From positions 2,765,001-2,829,000 of the forward strand of contig NZ_CP123622.1 in NCBI RefSeq assembly GCF_029873255.1: a DNA stretch of 64,000 nucleotides. The letters run 5' to 3'. Positions 9,720-18,390 of this stretch are shown here, one piece after another (the stretch's first letter is position 1; the number at the start of each line of letters is the position of its first letter). Under the pieces are notes generated by a model, which made no database searches, was not told where the DNA came from, and saw only the letters and a list, made by a program, of their open reading frames with translations. This DNA comes from Pigmentibacter sp. JX0631. Its GTDB lineage: Bacteria > Bdellovibrionota_B > Oligoflexia > Silvanigrellales > Silvanigrellaceae. Made by a program: the position numbers and the translations under genes.

Positions 9720-10940
9720 TTGAAAATAAAAGTAAATTGGTATGGAAAAGAATATCCGCAAGATTGGGAGTTTTTTGCGGAGTGTGAAGAAGGTAAAAAT
9801 ATAGATATTTCAGGGAAAAATGGTTCTGAAAGCAAAAAAACAGCACCTAGTCCGAAAGAATTGGTATTGCAAGGAATGGCTTCTTGTACTGCAATCGATG
9901 TCATTAGCACTTTAAAAAAAATGCGCCAAGTTGTTGAGTCTTTTACCGTTGAATGCTCTGCTGCGCAAACAGAAATACATCCTAAAATATTCAAAGAATC
10001 TACTCTAACTTATAAACTTACAGGAAAAAATTTAGAGATAGAAAAAGTTATTCATTGTATTTTTTTAAGCTTCACAAAGTATTGCGGAGTCCATGCTATT
10101 TTAGAAAAATCTGGATGTAATATAAAACCACAAATTTTTATTAATGATAAATTAATAGATCTTTGGGATCCTCAAAATAAAACGCAAATAAAATTGCAAG
10201 AATGGTATGAAAATTTTGGCAAAAATTGTTCAAAAGGTGTAGCTTTAGTTATAGGCACTTCAAGAGGAATTGGAAAAGAATTAGTTTTTAAACTTGAAAA
10301 AGAAGGATACGCTGTTCTTCCTGCTGGACGCACTAGTTTTAACTTTGAAAATGAAAATATTTTTGACTCTTTATTTTTAGATATTACAAAACCCTATACA
10401 ACTGATTATGTAAAAAATTTACTAATAAAAACAAAAATAAAAATATCTTTACTGGTTCAAAATGCTGGAATATCTTCTACTGACTTGGTTCAAGATGATG
10501 TAAATGCTTTGCAGCTTACAATGCATGAATTAAGACATGTTTACGATACAAATGTTTTTGGAATAATTGAATCAACTAATAATTTAATCTCAGTTTTAGA
10601 AGCAAGTGCAAAAGTTATTTTAGTTTCAAGTACAATGGCATTAAGAGAAAGAGATTCCTTTTTAACATCTGTTTACCGAATGACTAAAAGGACAATCAAC
10701 CAATATGTGAGACAAGCAGCAATGCAAATAACCCATGAGCAAAGAGATGTATCTATTTTTGCTTTGCATCCAGGGAGTGTAAAAACAGATTTAAACCCAT
10801 CAGGTAAAATTTCTGTAGAAGAAAGTACTACGCAAATTATGGAAATTTTAGCAGATAATTTTGCTCTAAATTTAAAGAATAATAATGGTGAGTTTTGGAT
10901 TTATGATACTGAAGCAAAAACTTGGAAAATAAAATTTTAG
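9720..10940 (+). CDS. OsmC-like domain fused to short-chain dehydrogenase
   Basis: One 406-residue frame with two domains. Residues 1-145 are OsmC/Ohr-like: a Cys at 56 in GMASCTAIDV and a second at 122 in KYCGVH, the pair that acts on peroxides in this family. Residues 172-405 are a Rossmann short-chain dehydrogenase: NAD(P) loop GTSRGIG at 179-185, NAG at 248-250, Ser303/304 and the Tyr319-x3-Lys323 catalytic pair. The initial TGxxxGIG Thr is replaced, as GT is shifted. TTG start, with AAAAGGAG nine bases upstream. No stop or frameshift separates the domains. Fourth gene in the nagA run; substrate unknown. Confidence 0.85.
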   Translation: MKIKVNWYGKEYPQDWEFFAECEEGKNIDISGKNGSESKKTAPSPKELVLQGMASCTAIDVISTLKKMRQVVESFTVECSAAQTEIHPKIFKESTLTYKLTGKNLEIEKVIHCIFLSFTKYCGVHAILEKSGCNIKPQIFINDKLIDLWDPQNKTQIKLQEWYENFGKNCSKGVALVIGTSRGIGKELVFKLEKEGYAVLPAGRTSFNFENENIFDSLFLDITKPYTTDYVKNLLIKTKIKISLLVQNAGISSTDLVQDDVNALQLTMHELRHVYDTNVFGIIESTNNLISVLEASAKVILVSSTMALRERDSFLTSVYRMTKRTINQYVRQAAMQITHEQRDVSIFALHPGSVKTDLNPSGKISVEESTTQIMEILADNFALNLKNNNGEFWIYDTEAKTWKIKF

Positions 10941-12480: not shown

Positions 12481-12499
12481 GATAATAAATATTATTATC
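12481..12499 (+). promoter_or_regulatory. Fur box upstream of FecE-type ATPase
   Basis: GATAATAAATATTATTATC is a near-perfect 19-bp inverted repeat (outer hexamers GATAAT/ATTATC with an intervening TAAT-type match) and fits the classical Fur consensus GATAATGATAATCATTATC at most positions. It ends 28 bp before the ATG of the ATPase gene, overlapping the expected promoter. Confidence 0.82.
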
Positions 12500-12527: not shown

Positions 12528-13310
12528 ATGAACCATATACATGCTAAAGAAATAAATTTTTCATATTCAAATGAAACATTTTTAAAAAATATTTCCTTAA
12601 CTATCCAAGCTGGCAAAATGATTTCTATTATAGGTCCAAATGGTTCGGGAAAATCTACTTTAGTAAAATTGCTAGCAGCCTCAATTCTGCCACAAAGTGG
12701 ACATGTTTTTTTAAATGAGTTGCCAATTTTGAAAATGAAACGGAAAGAACTTGCAAAAAAAATTGCATATTTATCTCAATCACCTGTAGCTCCTGATGAT
12801 TTAACAGTTCGGCAGTTGGTTCAATATGGGCGTTATGCGCATCAATCTTATTTTAAAAATACAAAGAATAATGATGAAAATATTGTTAATTGGGCTTTAC
12901 AAGTAACAGGACTAACAAATTTTGCTGAAAATTGTGTTTTTGAACTTTCTGGTGGGCAAAGACAACGCGCCTGGATAGGTATGGCTTTAGCACAAAATAG
13001 TCAATGTTTATTTTTAGATGAACTTACGACTTATTTAGATATAAGGCATCAAATTGAAATTTTAAATTTATTAAAAAATATTAATCAGGAACAAAAGAAA
13101 ACTATTGTTATGGTACATCATGATTTAAATCACGCCATTCATTATTCTGAGGAAATAATTGTTATGGCTGATGGGAAAATAAAAGCTTTTGATAAGGTGC
13201 AAAATATTTTAGAAAGTAAAATACTAAATTCTGTATTTAATATTGAATTTAAATGTTTTTTTGATCAAAATAAAAGGCCAATATTATTTTATTCACATAC
13301 TGTAGCATAG
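12528..13310 (+). CDS. Iron-siderophore ABC transporter ATPase (FecE/FhuC type)
   Basis: A 260-residue ABC ATPase: Walker A GPNGSGKS at 36-43, Q-loop AYLSQSP, signature LSGGQRQRAWI at 140-150, Walker B CLFLDE ending at 165, and H-loop VMVHHDLNHA. The sequence style (LTVRQLVQYGRYAHQ, TYLDIRHQ) is that of the siderophore/haem/B12 branch. It would power import by the two FecCD permeases encoded convergently just downstream (13354-15355), from which it is separated by 43 bp. It is iron-regulated through its own Fur box. No other importer in the window lacks an ATPase of this class. Confidence 0.93.
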   Translation: MNHIHAKEINFSYSNETFLKNISLTIQAGKMISIIGPNGSGKSTLVKLLAASILPQSGHVFLNELPILKMKRKELAKKIAYLSQSPVAPDDLTVRQLVQYGRYAHQSYFKNTKNNDENIVNWALQVTGLTNFAENCVFELSGGQRQRAWIGMALAQNSQCLFLDELTTYLDIRHQIEILNLLKNINQEQKKTIVMVHHDLNHAIHYSEEIIVMADGKIKAFDKVQNILESKILNSVFNIEFKCFFDQNKRPILFYSHTVA

Positions 13311-13353: not shown

Positions 13354-14355
13354 TTAATTATGTTTACTAGTTTTTTTTAAAAGAAAGAGAAAGTAAGGAA
13401 CTCCTAAAATGATTGTAATAAGCCCAACTGGAATTTCATAAGGAGGGTAAATTATTCGGCCAAAAAAATCAGCCAATAGTGTAATGCTTGCTCCAATAAA
13501 AGCAGAACCAATTAAATTAAATTTATGTTGACTTCCGAAAAGTAATTTTGAAATATTAGGTGAAATAAGTCCAATAAAACCTAAACTACCACATCCAGAA
13601 ACTGCAACTGCTGATAAACCTAGTGCCAAAAAGATATAATATAATTTCCATGGTAACGGTGAGAAGCCCAAATTTTTAGAATCTGTATCCTTTAAAAGTA
13701 AGAGATCAAGTTTTTTTAGAAAAAGAAAAGTTAGGAAAAGAAAACAGCAACCTGGAATAAAAATTTGCTCGATGAGTTCCCAACTTGAATGGTATAATGT
13801 ACCAGTAATAAATTTAAGTATTGCACTAAATTTTTCATCTGTCTGCATAACTAAAAATTGGCAAAGAGCTTTAAATAAAACTCCGCAAGCTATTCCCACA
13901 ATTATTAAGCGTATTTGTAAAATTTGTTTTTTTTCTAGAGTAAAAATTATTGCTAAAAGAAAACCTAAGATAGCACCAAAAATAGAAAAATAAATATTAG
14001 GAAATGCAAAAAATTTAGAAAGATAAAAAGTATTTATTAAAATAAAAAATGAACTTGCCGAATTAATACCAAGAATATCTGGAGCTGCCATGGGATTATG
14101 AAATACACTTTGCAAAATACTTCCAGAAACTGCAAAAAGAATTCCACAAAAAGCACCAATAATGATTCTTGGTAACCTGACATCGTGAAGAATAAAAAAA
14201 GATTGATCAACGTTGTTTTTTTCAATTAGAACCATAAAAATATTTTTTAAAGAATAATTCACTATCCCAAATTTTAAAGATATTATTGAAATAAAGATTA
14301 AAAATAACAAATATATCATGATAAAAATTATTTTATTGGATTTAGTTCTAAGCAT
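13354..14355 (-). CDS. FecCD-family metallophore ABC permease (second subunit)
   Basis: Inner-membrane permease of 333 residues with about nine to ten helices. Family motifs are LPRIIIGAFCGILFAVSGS with QSVFHNPMAAPDILGINS, and GSLGFIGLISPNISKLLFG, which contains the ATPase-contact loop. Its start overlaps the end of the other FecCD gene by eight bases. It is the last gene of the minus-strand operon that begins with the binding protein at 18332. Substrate is probably an iron or other metal chelate, judged from the Fur box and family. Confidence 0.92.
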   Translation of the reverse strand: MLRTKSNKIIFIMIYLLFLIFISIISLKFGIVNYSLKNIFMVLIEKNNVDQSFFILHDVRLPRIIIGAFCGILFAVSGSILQSVFHNPMAAPDILGINSASSFFILINTFYLSKFFAFPNIYFSIFGAILGFLLAIIFTLEKKQILQIRLIIVGIACGVLFKALCQFLVMQTDEKFSAILKFITGTLYHSSWELIEQIFIPGCCFLFLTFLFLKKLDLLLLKDTDSKNLGFSPLPWKLYYIFLALGLSAVAVSGCGSLGFIGLISPNISKLLFGSQHKFNLIGSAFIGASITLLADFFGRIIYPPYEIPVGLITIILGVPYFLFLLKKTSKHN

Positions 14356-15355
14356 TTTTTTTGTGCTGCTTTAATTTAGAGGTTAATATTAAAATAGGCG
14401 CTCCAATTACTGCAATTAGTAGTCCAATAGCTACTTCTTTTTCTGCAAATAAATATTTCATTAAACTATCGCAAATTAAGATAAAAATTGCTCCAAATAA
14501 AGCAATAAATGGTGCAAGAAAATATGGATTTTGACCTACTACCATTTTACTAAAATGATTAATAATTAATGGTAAAAAAAGAATAGGTCCAATTAATGCA
14601 ACAGAAAATGAACTTAAAATTACAGTTAAAAAAAGAAAAAATCCTATATTGAATTTATAATTAAATCCTACCGAATGAGCTGTTGTTTTTCCAAATGAAA
14701 GAAGGTGCAAATTTTTTAAATTTAAAAAATTTAATATTAAAACTAGTATAGTAGGAAGAGATGTCCATTTTAAAAGTTCCCAAGATGATCCTGCTAATGA
14801 GCCATTTAAATTTATTAATATAACACCTGATCTTGTGGGTAAAAAAATTAAAATAGCTTGAATAAGAGCATAAAATAGTGCATTTATTGCTTGACCTGCT
14901 AAAATAAATTTTAATGGTGTCAAACCAACTTTATTTGCAATATAAAAAATAAAAGCTGTAGCAATTCCTCCGCCAATTACAGAGAAAGATAAATAAATTA
15001 TTGGATGGCAAAAAGGATAAAATGCTAGTGTTAAAACAATGCCAAGTCCAGCTCCTTGATTTATTCCTAATAAGCTTGGACAGGCCATTGGATTTTGGCT
15101 AATGAACTGTAAGTTCATTCCAGCAATTCCTAACGCTGAACCAACTAAACAAGCAGTGATTGCTCTTGGTAACCTTGTATCAAATATTAAGCGACTTTCT
15201 AGTTTATCTGAAGGGAAAAATAAATTTTCTATTACTTCTTTAAAAGGTAATTTAATAGGACCTAAAGACAAGGCAATAATGAAAAAAGAAATTAATAATA
15301 ATACTAAAATAAGATATATTAAAAAAACATATTTCTTACTTGATAAAACTTGCAA
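14348..15355 (-). CDS. FecCD-family metallophore ABC permease (first subunit)
   Basis: A 335-residue membrane protein paralogous to its neighbour. It carries LPRAITACLVGSALGIAGMN and QFISQNPMACPSLLGINQ, the TM2-TM3 signature of BtuC/FecCD permeases, but the ATPase-contact region (ALIGPILFLPLIINHF) is more diverged than in the second subunit. The 5' end overlaps the EamA gene by 20 bases and the 3' end overlaps the next permease by 8, so translation is coupled through the set. It would form a heterodimer with the 13354-14355 product. Confidence 0.9.
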   Translation of the reverse strand: MQVLSSKKYVFLIYLILVLLLISFFIIALSLGPIKLPFKEVIENLFFPSDKLESRLIFDTRLPRAITACLVGSALGIAGMNLQFISQNPMACPSLLGINQGAGLGIVLTLAFYPFCHPIIYLSFSVIGGGIATAFIFYIANKVGLTPLKFILAGQAINALFYALIQAILIFLPTRSGVILINLNGSLAGSSWELLKWTSLPTILVLILNFLNLKNLHLLSFGKTTAHSVGFNYKFNIGFFLFLTVILSSFSVALIGPILFLPLIINHFSKMVVGQNPYFLAPFIALFGAIFILICDSLMKYLFAEKEVAIGLLIAVIGAPILILTSKLKQHKKNA

Positions 15356-16253
15356 GGGAGAGTCCTAAACATAAAAGAATTACAGAAAATTTTTGGAATA
15401 ACGACAATCGTTCCTTATGAATTATGTATGAGAGAGCTACTATTACAAGACTTCGTGCAGAAAAAATTAATGCAACTAAACTAGTTGGCCCTGTTAACAA
15501 AGCTTGTGAATATAAATATAACCCTAAACCAGAGCATAAACCTGTTACAAGACCATACCAAACGGCATGATATCTATTTTTTTCTTTAAAAATATTAATC
15601 AAATATCTTAAGTTATAACTTTTATAACTTGATTTTTTATTAGCTAAAAATAATCTTTTTTCCTTTATAATAATAGCAGTAGAAGAAAGAATAAAACAAA
15701 AAATGTAAGAGTATAGCAAAACAATCGTATTATTTAAATTTAATTCTTGTGTAATTTTTAATCCACCCTCTCTAAGAAATAGAAAGAAAGATCCCAAAAT
15801 TACCCACAAAAACCATTTATTTTCTTTAATAACTAACTTTTCATTTGGGTCTATTTTTACGATTATTATAGCGGCAAACAAAGTAACAATAATAGCAATT
15901 TTAATACTGTCAATTTCTTCATGGTAGACAAAAACTGACATTAGTATAATCAAAGGAATATTTAAACTTAGCATAGGAGCTGTTAAACTTGCAGGCCCTA
16001 CTTCAAGCGCCTTTATAACAAACCAGTTGCCATAAAATGATCCTAAACCTATTAAAACTGCCCAAACATATAAAAAAATGTTAGTTGAAAAATATAGTTC
16101 TTTATAACACTGGGTATAAAAAAAGATGCCTCCAGCTAAATAAAGTCCCCATAGCAAATATTGGTCTATTTGGTTTCGCATTGTAGATGATTTCATAACT
16201 ACACTTGCAAATCCAAAAATGATTGCACTAAAAATTGCTTCTGTTATCCACAT
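15336..16253 (-). CDS. EamA/DMT-family transporter, probable opine or metallophore exporter
   Basis: A 305-residue inner-membrane protein with ten predicted helices in two EamA halves; the second half repeats the pattern with GLYLYSQALLTGPTSLVALIFSARSLVIV, the first with GNWFVIKALEVGPASLTAPMLSLNIPLII. In the known staphylopine and pseudopaline loci an EamA-family protein (CntI) exports the newly made opine metallophore. Here the gene overlaps the opine dehydrogenase by ten bases and the FecC-type permease by twenty, so the same role is a reasonable inference. An ordinary amino acid or metabolite exporter is the alternative. Confidence 0.85.
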   Translation of the reverse strand: MWITEAIFSAIIFGFASVVMKSSTMRNQIDQYLLWGLYLAGGIFFYTQCYKELYFSTNIFLYVWAVLIGLGSFYGNWFVIKALEVGPASLTAPMLSLNIPLIILMSVFVYHEEIDSIKIAIIVTLFAAIIIVKIDPNEKLVIKENKWFLWVILGSFFLFLREGGLKITQELNLNNTIVLLYSYIFCFILSSTAIIIKEKRLFLANKKSSYKSYNLRYLINIFKEKNRYHAVWYGLVTGLCSGLGLYLYSQALLTGPTSLVALIFSARSLVIVALSYIIHKERLSLFQKFSVILLCLGLSLASFIK

Positions 16254-17305
16254 TTATGAAATTCTCTGAGGTGAGATTCTCTAATAATACGTCCTTTTTC
16301 AAAATAGTTTGTATTATTTAATACTGAGGAAATTTCGATAATATTTCGCATTGCGGAACATTTAACTCCTAATTGTTCTCCTATTGTTAACCAAGGAACT
16401 AGTGAGTAAGGAACATCTTCCGTGATGTAGCGATGATTAATCGCCATTGGGCAAAAAGTTTTTTTGTTATGGATAGGAGAAAATTTATAAAAATCATAAA
16501 TATTTTTAAATGAAAGATTGTAATATTCATTCATAACTTCATAAAATTTAGGTAGATTTAAATTTAATTTATTTCCAATTTCTATTCTTTCATAGTCTAA
16601 TTTTTCAAGAAAAGATGCTGTTTCTTTAGTTATTCCATCTTTATAAAAATAGAACTCTAAATTATTTCCTATTCTACCTGCATTAAATAATACATTTGAA
16701 GGATGAGTTACACCGCACGGATCATACAATCCAACTTCAACAAAACTTGACATAACTCTTAAATTACTTGGAAAGAAATTATTTAAGATATTTGCAACTT
16801 CAGAACTTAAATTATGATTGAAAGACGCCAGTCCCATTGATTGTTTTATTGAAACTATATTTGCTTGTCCGGGGGATTCGCTTCTGCAAGCATAAGGAAA
16901 AGAAGTAACATCGGCTATTATAATATTTTTATCCCAATTTGAACGATTTAATATTTCTTTTTGAAAAATTCCTGAAAATTGCGCAGATAAATTAACTACG
17001 ATATGATTTTCCTTTAAGAAAGGAAGTAAATTTATAAATATTGATTCGTGTGCCACTACTGGCAAACAAATAAATATAATTTCAGTATCTTTTACTGCCA
17101 AATTCAGGTCTGTTGTAATAATATTTAGTTTTCCGAATCCTTCAACAGCTCCTTGACAATCAATTCCACCCTTCGAATTTACAATGTGAATACCACCTAA
17201 GTGGTTAGGATGGGCGTATAAGTTAACAGATAATCCAAGTAGAGCCAAATGGCCTGCTAATGCTTGCCCACCATGCCCACACCCTATAACGGCTATATTT
17301 TTCAT
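16244..17305 (-). CDS. Opine (octopine/nopaline-type) dehydrogenase family protein
   Basis: A 353-residue NAD(P)-dependent enzyme. The Rossmann loop is GCGHGG at 8-13, followed by a 6PGDH-like core, FICLPVVAHE, and the family's catalytic stretch CGVTHPSNVLFNAGRI with His201. This pattern is that of octopine/nopaline dehydrogenases, which reductively join an alpha-keto acid to an amino group. It sits second in a Fur-boxed operon with a binding protein, an exporter and two permeases. Metallophore-forming opine dehydrogenases (CntM) do this job on nicotianamine-like precursors, but no CntL-type synthase is in the window, so the amine substrate is unknown. Confidence 0.82.
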   Translation of the reverse strand: MKNIAVIGCGHGGQALAGHLALLGLSVNLYAHPNHLGGIHIVNSKGGIDCQGAVEGFGKLNIITTDLNLAVKDTEIIFICLPVVAHESIFINLLPFLKENHIVVNLSAQFSGIFQKEILNRSNWDKNIIIADVTSFPYACRSESPGQANIVSIKQSMGLASFNHNLSSEVANILNNFFPSNLRVMSSFVEVGLYDPCGVTHPSNVLFNAGRIGNNLEFYFYKDGITKETASFLEKLDYERIEIGNKLNLNLPKFYEVMNEYYNLSFKNIYDFYKFSPIHNKKTFCPMAINHRYITEDVPYSLVPWLTIGEQLGVKCSAMRNIIEISSVLNNTNYFEKGRIIRESHLREFHKCG

Positions 17306-17326
17306 TTTTGCCTCTGCTTATCTTGG

Positions 17327-17360
17327 AGAGATGTAGTTATTTAAAAATAACTACATCTCT
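17327..17360 (-). promoter_or_regulatory. Perfect 16-bp hairpin between binding protein and opine dehydrogenase genes
   Basis: AGAGATGTAGTTATTT at 17327-17342 is exactly complementary to 17345-17360, with a two-base centre. It lies in the 73-bp gap between two co-directional genes. On the transcribed (minus) strand no U-run follows, so it looks like an RNA-stability or partial-termination element rather than a full terminator. Confidence 0.65.
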
Positions 17361-17378
17361 AAGTTATACTTATGCTTC

Positions 17379-18332
17379 TTAATTTAATTTTGCTTTTTTA
17401 CTTTGTGGGATAGCTTCTAAAAAACCTGAAGTTTCAGCCTCTTTATACATAATTTCCATTGCTTCAATACCATGAGTTTTCGCCCAAACATTTCTATCCA
17501 AGAAATAAATTTGATTTTCTTTTAAAGCCCTAACATCTTTCCAGAGAGGGTTTTTTTCTAATTTTTTATAAGGTTCCATATTTCCGTCTGTTAATAAAAT
17601 GGCAATTTGATCAGGGTTTTTACTAATAACACCTTCAACAGTCATTTCTATTCTGTGCATAACATCAGTTTCTTTAACTAAATTTTCCTTATTTAGTTCT
17701 TTTAATATTGGAGTTGCTATTGCATTTGAGGTTAAAGCTCTAAAAACACCGTTTGGGGTAATGTATCCAATTAAGACTGTTTTTTTCTTTGATTTTTCAG
17801 CAACTTTTAATGCATGAGTTCTTATTTTTTCATAGTGTTCAATAATTCCTGGTACTTTATTTTCAGTATTTGTAATTTTTGCAAGTGTATGCAAATTCTT
17901 TATTTGCTCTTTAGGATCACCTAAAATACCATTCATCAAAATTGTTGGGGCAATTTTATTTAATTGTGGTAGAATATTCATTACAAAAGAAGCATCTCCA
18001 ATAATAAGATCTGGTTTTAATTTAGCAATTGCCTCTAAACTAGGTTCATCCCTTGTTCCTACACTGGCTATGTCTTTGATGAATTCTTGCAAATGGGCTG
18101 GATCCTGTCCTTCTGTGTTATCACTTTTACCCATTCCTATTGGCTTGACTCCAAGTAGTTTTAACTCATCTAAAATACCAAATTCTAAAACTATGATACG
18201 TTCAGGTTTTTTTTGAATTGTTACTTTACCATTTTCTCCTGATACTTGGGTTGGATAAATTGTCGCAAAACTGCTAAAGGAACAAAAAGATGCGCATAAA
18301 GAAAGCATTGTAGCAACTAATTTGAATTTCAT
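17379..18332 (-). CDS. Periplasmic iron-chelate binding protein (FecB/FepB type)
   Basis: A 317-residue protein with a Sec signal peptide (residues 1-23, ending SSFA) and the two-lobed helical-backbone fold of siderophore-binding proteins: KKPERIIVLEFGILDELKLLGV, then ASVGTRDEPSLEAIAKLKPDLIIGD, and later HRIEMTVEGVISKNPDQIAIL. There is no lipobox, as expected in a Gram-negative. It heads the operon with the consensus Fur box 40 bp upstream of its ATG. It would deliver the ferric or other metal chelate to the FecCD permeases. Confidence 0.93.
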   Translation of the reverse strand: MKFKLVATMLSLCASFCSFSSFATIYPTQVSGENGKVTIQKKPERIIVLEFGILDELKLLGVKPIGMGKSDNTEGQDPAHLQEFIKDIASVGTRDEPSLEAIAKLKPDLIIGDASFVMNILPQLNKIAPTILMNGILGDPKEQIKNLHTLAKITNTENKVPGIIEHYEKIRTHALKVAEKSKKKTVLIGYITPNGVFRALTSNAIATPILKELNKENLVKETDVMHRIEMTVEGVISKNPDQIAILLTDGNMEPYKKLEKNPLWKDVRALKENQIYFLDRNVWAKTHGIEAMEIMYKEAETSGFLEAIPQSKKAKLN

Positions 18333-18371
18333 AAGAAGTCCTTATTTCCAATAAAATCATAATGTTTATTA

Positions 18372-18390
18372 GATAATGATAATCATTATC
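18372..18390 (-). promoter_or_regulatory. Consensus Fur box upstream of the binding protein/opine dehydrogenase operon
   Basis: GATAATGATAATCATTATC matches the classical 19-bp Fur consensus at every position and is a perfect palindrome apart from its centre. It lies 40-58 bp before the ATG at 18332 and should place the five-gene minus-strand operon under iron control. Confidence 0.93.

Follow-up and report, generated by a model that had tools for sequence, protein, structure and literature searches.

Five genes on the minus strand of the Pigmentibacter sp. JX0631 genome probably form a Fur-controlled, iron-directed cassette for an opine-type metallophore that would be made, exported and re-imported. 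They lie in a window of 64,000 nucleotides (contig NZ_CP123622.1, positions 2,765,001 to 2,829,000), the whole stretch of DNA that was analysed, and are numbered by its positions. On iron starvation, Fur would leave the box at 18372-18390. The dehydrogenase encoded by the cassette would condense an amine, most simply a cellular amino acid, with an alpha-keto acid and reduce the imine with NAD(P)H; we infer that the reaction runs in this direction. The product would be a small amino-polycarboxylate opine, which the EamA protein would export. The ferric complex of this same product, iron being the likely metal, would be caught by the binding protein and imported through the FecCD/FecE-like system.

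More tentatively, and with our doubts slightly outweighing our confidence, the cassette may make a one-enzyme siderophore, in which a lone opine dehydrogenase produces a ferric chelator from central metabolites. It would then be a minimal, transferable unit for making, exporting and re-importing a chelator, and a branch of opine metallophores that needs neither nicotianamine synthase (NAS) nor CntM. The published cluster survey began from CntM, and the characterised opine metallophores use CntM and NAS (PMC7438024). A Fur-controlled cassette based on another family of opine dehydrogenase would escape such a survey. If true, this would bring iron, besides zinc, within the range of opine metallophores, with a minimal, testable biosynthetic unit and a new enzyme specificity.

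Gene content and regulation

The first gene encodes a periplasmic siderophore-binding protein, HtsA/FecB-like (17379..18332, Peripla_BP_2). It is separated by a 73-nt spacer (17306..17378) from the gene for the opine dehydrogenase (16244..17305, Octopine_DH, PF02317); no other biosynthetic enzyme is encoded by the cassette. An EamA-family transporter (15336..16253, EamA) follows, and then two FecCD permeases, the first FecC-like with a TTG start (14348..15355) and the second FecD-like (13354..14355). All of these Pfam assignments score well over the cut-off. Overlaps of 10, 20 and 8 bases are present at the dehydrogenase/EamA, EamA/FecC and FecC/FecD junctions. The ORF coordinates and Pfam matches bear out the five ORFs, the strand and the three overlaps of the original prediction. 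Just beyond the coordinates of that prediction is a gene for a FecE-like ABC ATPase on the plus strand (12528..13310, identified by Pfam and homology). Because it is convergent to the operon and has its own Fur-like box (16/19, 12481..12499), the ATPase gene is not part of the operon. With it the importer set is complete, having a Peripla_BP_2 protein, two FecCD permeases and an ATPase. Elsewhere in the window (9720-10940), a single 406-aa ORF encodes an OsmC-like domain fused with a short-chain dehydrogenase, and this fusion is also kept in the relative G012 with 86% identity.

The Fur box of the operon, GATAATGATAATCATTATC (18372..18390), agrees with the 19-bp consensus at 19 of 19 positions, as had been predicted. 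A whole-genome scan identified it as the sole exact copy in the 3.65-Mb genome, for which base composition (i.i.d.) gives an expectation of approximately 2.5e-4 exact copies. The window has three Fur matches with 3 or fewer mismatches, of which two are this box read on either strand; shuffled windows would give 0.14. The box lies immediately downstream of a promoter-like TTGACT-18-AATAAT site (18430-18401, minus strand). It is also kept in relatives: each of the 7 binding-protein genes of the five genomes has a Fur box with 0 to 3 mismatches 42-59 bp upstream of the start. Fur-like boxes are likewise found 5' of the ATPase gene in the cassette copies L019 (16/19) and L020 (17/19). Upstream of the operon in a distant MAG (L023), nothing better than a 15/19 box is present, which tells against the proposed reading. 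Three Fur-family proteins are encoded in the genome, one of which has Fur as its best match and is of the canonical type. The operon is most likely under Fur control, judging from these sites, and would respond to iron.

None of the remaining Fur-box matches across the genome pointed to a second siderophore locus. One (17/19, at C1:769838) is 38 bases ahead of the start of an ORF for a lipoprotein-like protein of 1949 aa that has RTX-like repeats (L030:1895-7744). Another (16/19) is in front of a dehydroquinate-synthase homologue scoring under the AroB cut-off (L029:4926-6968, C1:2010925 on), which has a xylose-isomerase-like TIM-barrel gene 3' of it.

The spacer between the binding-protein and dehydrogenase genes can form a long hairpin (z -6.0). 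Hairpins that differ in sequence occur at the same position in the copies L019 and L023 (z -2.9 and z -4.4), and the gaps of L020-L022 are too short for one. There is no T-run 3' of the spacer hairpin, therefore a role in stabilising or dosing the binding-protein mRNA is likelier than termination. The hairpin possibly acts in this way.

Conservation and probable mobility of the cassette

The dehydrogenase is present in 5 of the 8 genomes of the genus and absent from all others among the 58 phylum genomes searched. The four relatives keep the order binding protein, dehydrogenase, EamA, FecC and FecD, and their proteins are approximately 52-95% identical to those here. A survey of neighbouring genes in related genomes had been suggested as a check on the original prediction, and both the order and the Fur boxes are conserved in these four. 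The binding-protein gene is duplicated in tandem in G010 and G014. The flanks represent three distinct sites, one shared by this genome (G000) and G012, one by G010 and G014, and one in G011. Where a flanking gene matches a Pfam family, it is in most cases a housekeeping or unrelated gene.

Beyond the genus, a single-protein query over genome contigs reached one cassette relative and two Zooshikella enzymes. The cassette relative, in the MAG L023 (labelled Burkholderiales as deposited, G+C 31.5%), has the same five-gene order, with a dehydrogenase 52% identical. The ATPase gene is directly 3' on the same strand in L023 and its homologues are convergent in L019 and L020. The Zooshikella dehydrogenases (L024:8959-10053 and L025:1917-3011) are 31-32% identical and have no EamA/FecCD neighbours; the Cys-Arg pair at 140-141 is not conserved in L024. 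Since the gene order is constant across three sites and a distant MAG, with flanks that are mostly housekeeping or unrelated, it is these genes that make up the unit. Their arrangement argues for a self-contained cassette that moves between genomes. No other gene travels with it, and this favours an amine that is a common metabolite over a dedicated precursor.

The dehydrogenase

The dehydrogenase matches PF02317 with an E-value of 8e-36 and 123.7 bits, the cut-off being 30. For PF10100, the CntM family, there are zero matches to this protein even at E<=10, and a search of 56 phylum genomes, run without a positive control, gave no PF10100 match. When a profile of seven dehydrogenases was compared with solved structures, the Arthrobacter N-(1-D-carboxylethyl)-L-norvaline dehydrogenase (CENDH or ArODH, 1bg6) scored 208 bits and scallop octopine dehydrogenase 58 bits, and no staphylopine-type (CntM) dehydrogenase is among the 60 matches listed. 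The enzyme had been predicted to belong to the octopine branch rather than to CntM. The Pfam family and the lack of PF10100 agree with this; the closer relative is CENDH rather than octopine dehydrogenase itself. A small tree places six cassette enzymes in a single clade (100/100), separate from the Zooshikella, plasmid and Arthrobacter enzymes.

Gly8, Gly10 and Gly13 of the Rossmann GxGxxG motif are invariant in the cassette enzymes, as are His201, Arg292 and Glu296, and Asp297 is kept in all save L023, which has Glu. The catalytic His-Asp dyad (H201, D297) and the conserved Arg (R292) are therefore present. A conserved active-site Trp has been described for opine dehydrogenases (PMC10787698) and is common to ArODH and octopine dehydrogenase. 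From the sequence alignment alone, it is replaced by Val257 in all six cassette enzymes. The Pfam family does not require this Trp, so the enzyme still belongs to PF02317, but its specificity is likely changed. Judged by family and residues, the enzyme is an opine dehydrogenase and not a CntM.

Residues A111 and N198 of ArODH switch between hydrophobic and acidic amino acids (PMC10787698). Their equivalents here are Gln or His (109) and Cys or Ser (197), which fit neither substrate type. With the amine pocket altered at 109, 197 and Val257, the amine partner cannot be named from the sequence. ArODH Asp34 is Ala in the cassette enzyme; it is lost too in metagenomic opine dehydrogenases, which mostly prefer NADPH (PMC10787698), and by analogy it would be a guess that the cassette enzyme also uses NADPH. 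AlphaFold modelled the dehydrogenase poorly (pLDDT 53, pTM 0.46), and the model was left out of the analysis.

Import, export and the outer membrane

The best PDB match of the binding protein is HtsA, at 129.7 bits, with the runner-up at 91.8. The ligand of HtsA is ferric staphyloferrin A. HtsA Arg104 corresponds to Arg94 here, which is invariant in 8 of 8 copies, and HtsA Arg126 is replaced by Phe or Leu in the cassette binding proteins. Arg299, Arg304 and Arg306 of HtsA, which we take to be ligand residues, correspond to Arg280, Lys285 and His287, and these three are invariant in all eight copies. The basic residues at ligand positions mean that the pocket fits an anionic ferric (poly)carboxylate. 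Only one other FecCD protein is encoded in the genome. Its gene stands alone, has no Fur box close by and looks like part of a B12-type system, thus no paired siderophore-type importer other than that of the cassette is encoded in this genome.

EamA is presumed to export the opine, its direction of transport not being readable from sequence. The gene content of the genome offers no clear route across the outer membrane, and this counts against the proposed cycle. No PF00593 TonB-dependent receptor was found in the genome, and neither of its two weak Plug-domain proteins has a Fur box near it. A small ferric complex might cross via porins. Within the relative G010, a 442-aa ORF (L038:10456-11784) with a 17/19 Fur box in front heads a FecBCD importer; it has no Pfam or NCBIfam match and is a possible outer-membrane component.

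Alternative interpretations

There is a further point against the proposed cycle: compared with most siderophores, a simple opine derived from a common amino acid would bind Fe(III) more weakly. It is possible, if unlikely, that the dehydrogenase instead performs one step in the assembly of a larger siderophore, with the amine precursor made elsewhere, for example as an NRPS product or an unusual diamino acid. NRPS condensation domains do occur in the genome (G000), IucA/IucC (NIS) synthetases are present in the relatives G010, G011 and G014, and a pocket with Val257, Gln/His109 and Cys/Ser197 is ill-suited to the known simple substrates. However, a precursor gene accompanies the cassette at none of 4 genomic sites, including that in the distant MAG, and no IucA/IucC gene was found in G000 or G012, which have the cassette. 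The genome scan also listed no Fur box with 3 or fewer mismatches near the NRPS genes of G000.

An opine dehydrogenase could also work in reverse. Foreign ferric opine-like chelators would then be imported and oxidised by the reversible enzyme, the iron freed and the leftover exported by EamA. Reversibility of opine dehydrogenase reactions is stated in the title of McFarlane 2019 (cited in PMC12855858), and the lack of a dedicated precursor gene would be expected of such salvage. The nearest known arrangement, CntM with EamA and FecCD, runs synthetically, however, and the exporter would have no clear need, so we regard this as improbable.

Invertebrate opine dehydrogenases have redox roles, and the dehydrogenase and EamA genes could by that precedent be passengers in an iron-transport operon, serving redox balance or osmolyte export. 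The genes overlap, never change their order and have been transferred together between distant genomes, which makes this very hard to credit. Hardly worth entertaining is a CntLM-like, nicotianamine-type metallophore with its synthase elsewhere: the transporter types are as in yersinopine clusters (PMC7438024), but there is no NAS match in G000 although the control was detected, the dehydrogenase gives neither a PF10100 match nor a CntM structure among the 60 profile matches listed, and the box is a Fur and not a Zur box.

Comparison with known systems

The iron-directed opine cassette proposed here has to be compared with clusters in which an opine dehydrogenase is already known beside metallophore transporters. 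Characterised opine metallophores have the dehydrogenase beside EamA and FecCD transporters, and EamA export combined with FecCD import is common among CntM clusters, those of the yersinopine type among them (PMC7438024). FecBCDE import, which the original prediction presented as a departure from known opine loci, is consequently not one. The published criterion for such clusters is an export gene (EamA, MFS or MatE) and an import gene (Opp or FecCD) within six genes (PMC7438024); EamA and FecCD are adjacent in the cassette.

The literature, as far as it was covered, contains no report of a PF02317 enzyme within a bacterial iron-uptake cluster; one paper linking PF02317 to a putative B12-dependent protein (PMC2667541) is unrelated. 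Many PF02317 enzymes are found in plasmid records. None of four annotated neighbourhoods examined has EamA with FecCD, and two have MATE exporters. The latter adjoin dehydrogenases on Agrobacterium and Paraburkholderia plasmids (L026, L027), suggesting other opine make-and-export pairs. A lone plasmid EamA match, from Paenibacillus, has no dehydrogenase alongside.

The closest solved enzyme over its full length, ArODH/CENDH of Arthrobacter sp. 1C, shares the catalytic His, Arg and Asp with the cassette enzyme, and differs from it at A111/N198, the Trp and Asp34. The importer resembles the HtsABC and FecBCDE ferric carboxylate systems in its HtsA-nearest binding protein and its FecCDE-type permeases and ATPase. 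Unlike these, it has Phe or Leu where HtsA has Arg126 and is tied to an opine dehydrogenase rather than to an NIS pathway. A further siderophore locus of the same genus, in G011 (L037:6013-12809), also lies by a Fur-like box and has a FecBCD-type importer with an ATPase, whereas its synthetase is of the IucA/IucC-FhuF type, its exporter is an MFS protein and there is no dehydrogenase.

As in the CntKLM-type clusters for staphylopine, pseudopaline, yersinopine and bacillopaline, an opine dehydrogenase stands beside an EamA exporter, and the FecCD importer is shared with the yersinopine type and several other clusters (PMC7438024). The enzyme itself belongs to PF02317 rather than to PF10100/CntM. 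No CntL-like synthase had been predicted and this holds, the upstream gene encoding the binding protein; NAS was detected neither in the operon nor in the genome, nor above the cut-off in the genus, although the positive control was. The known clusters need NAS beside CntM and neither was found, therefore the cassette is not assigned to the CntLM type. Whereas the CntKLM-type products are zincophores, its Fur box and the closeness of its binding protein to HtsA suggest iron, not zinc, as the metal of the cassette.
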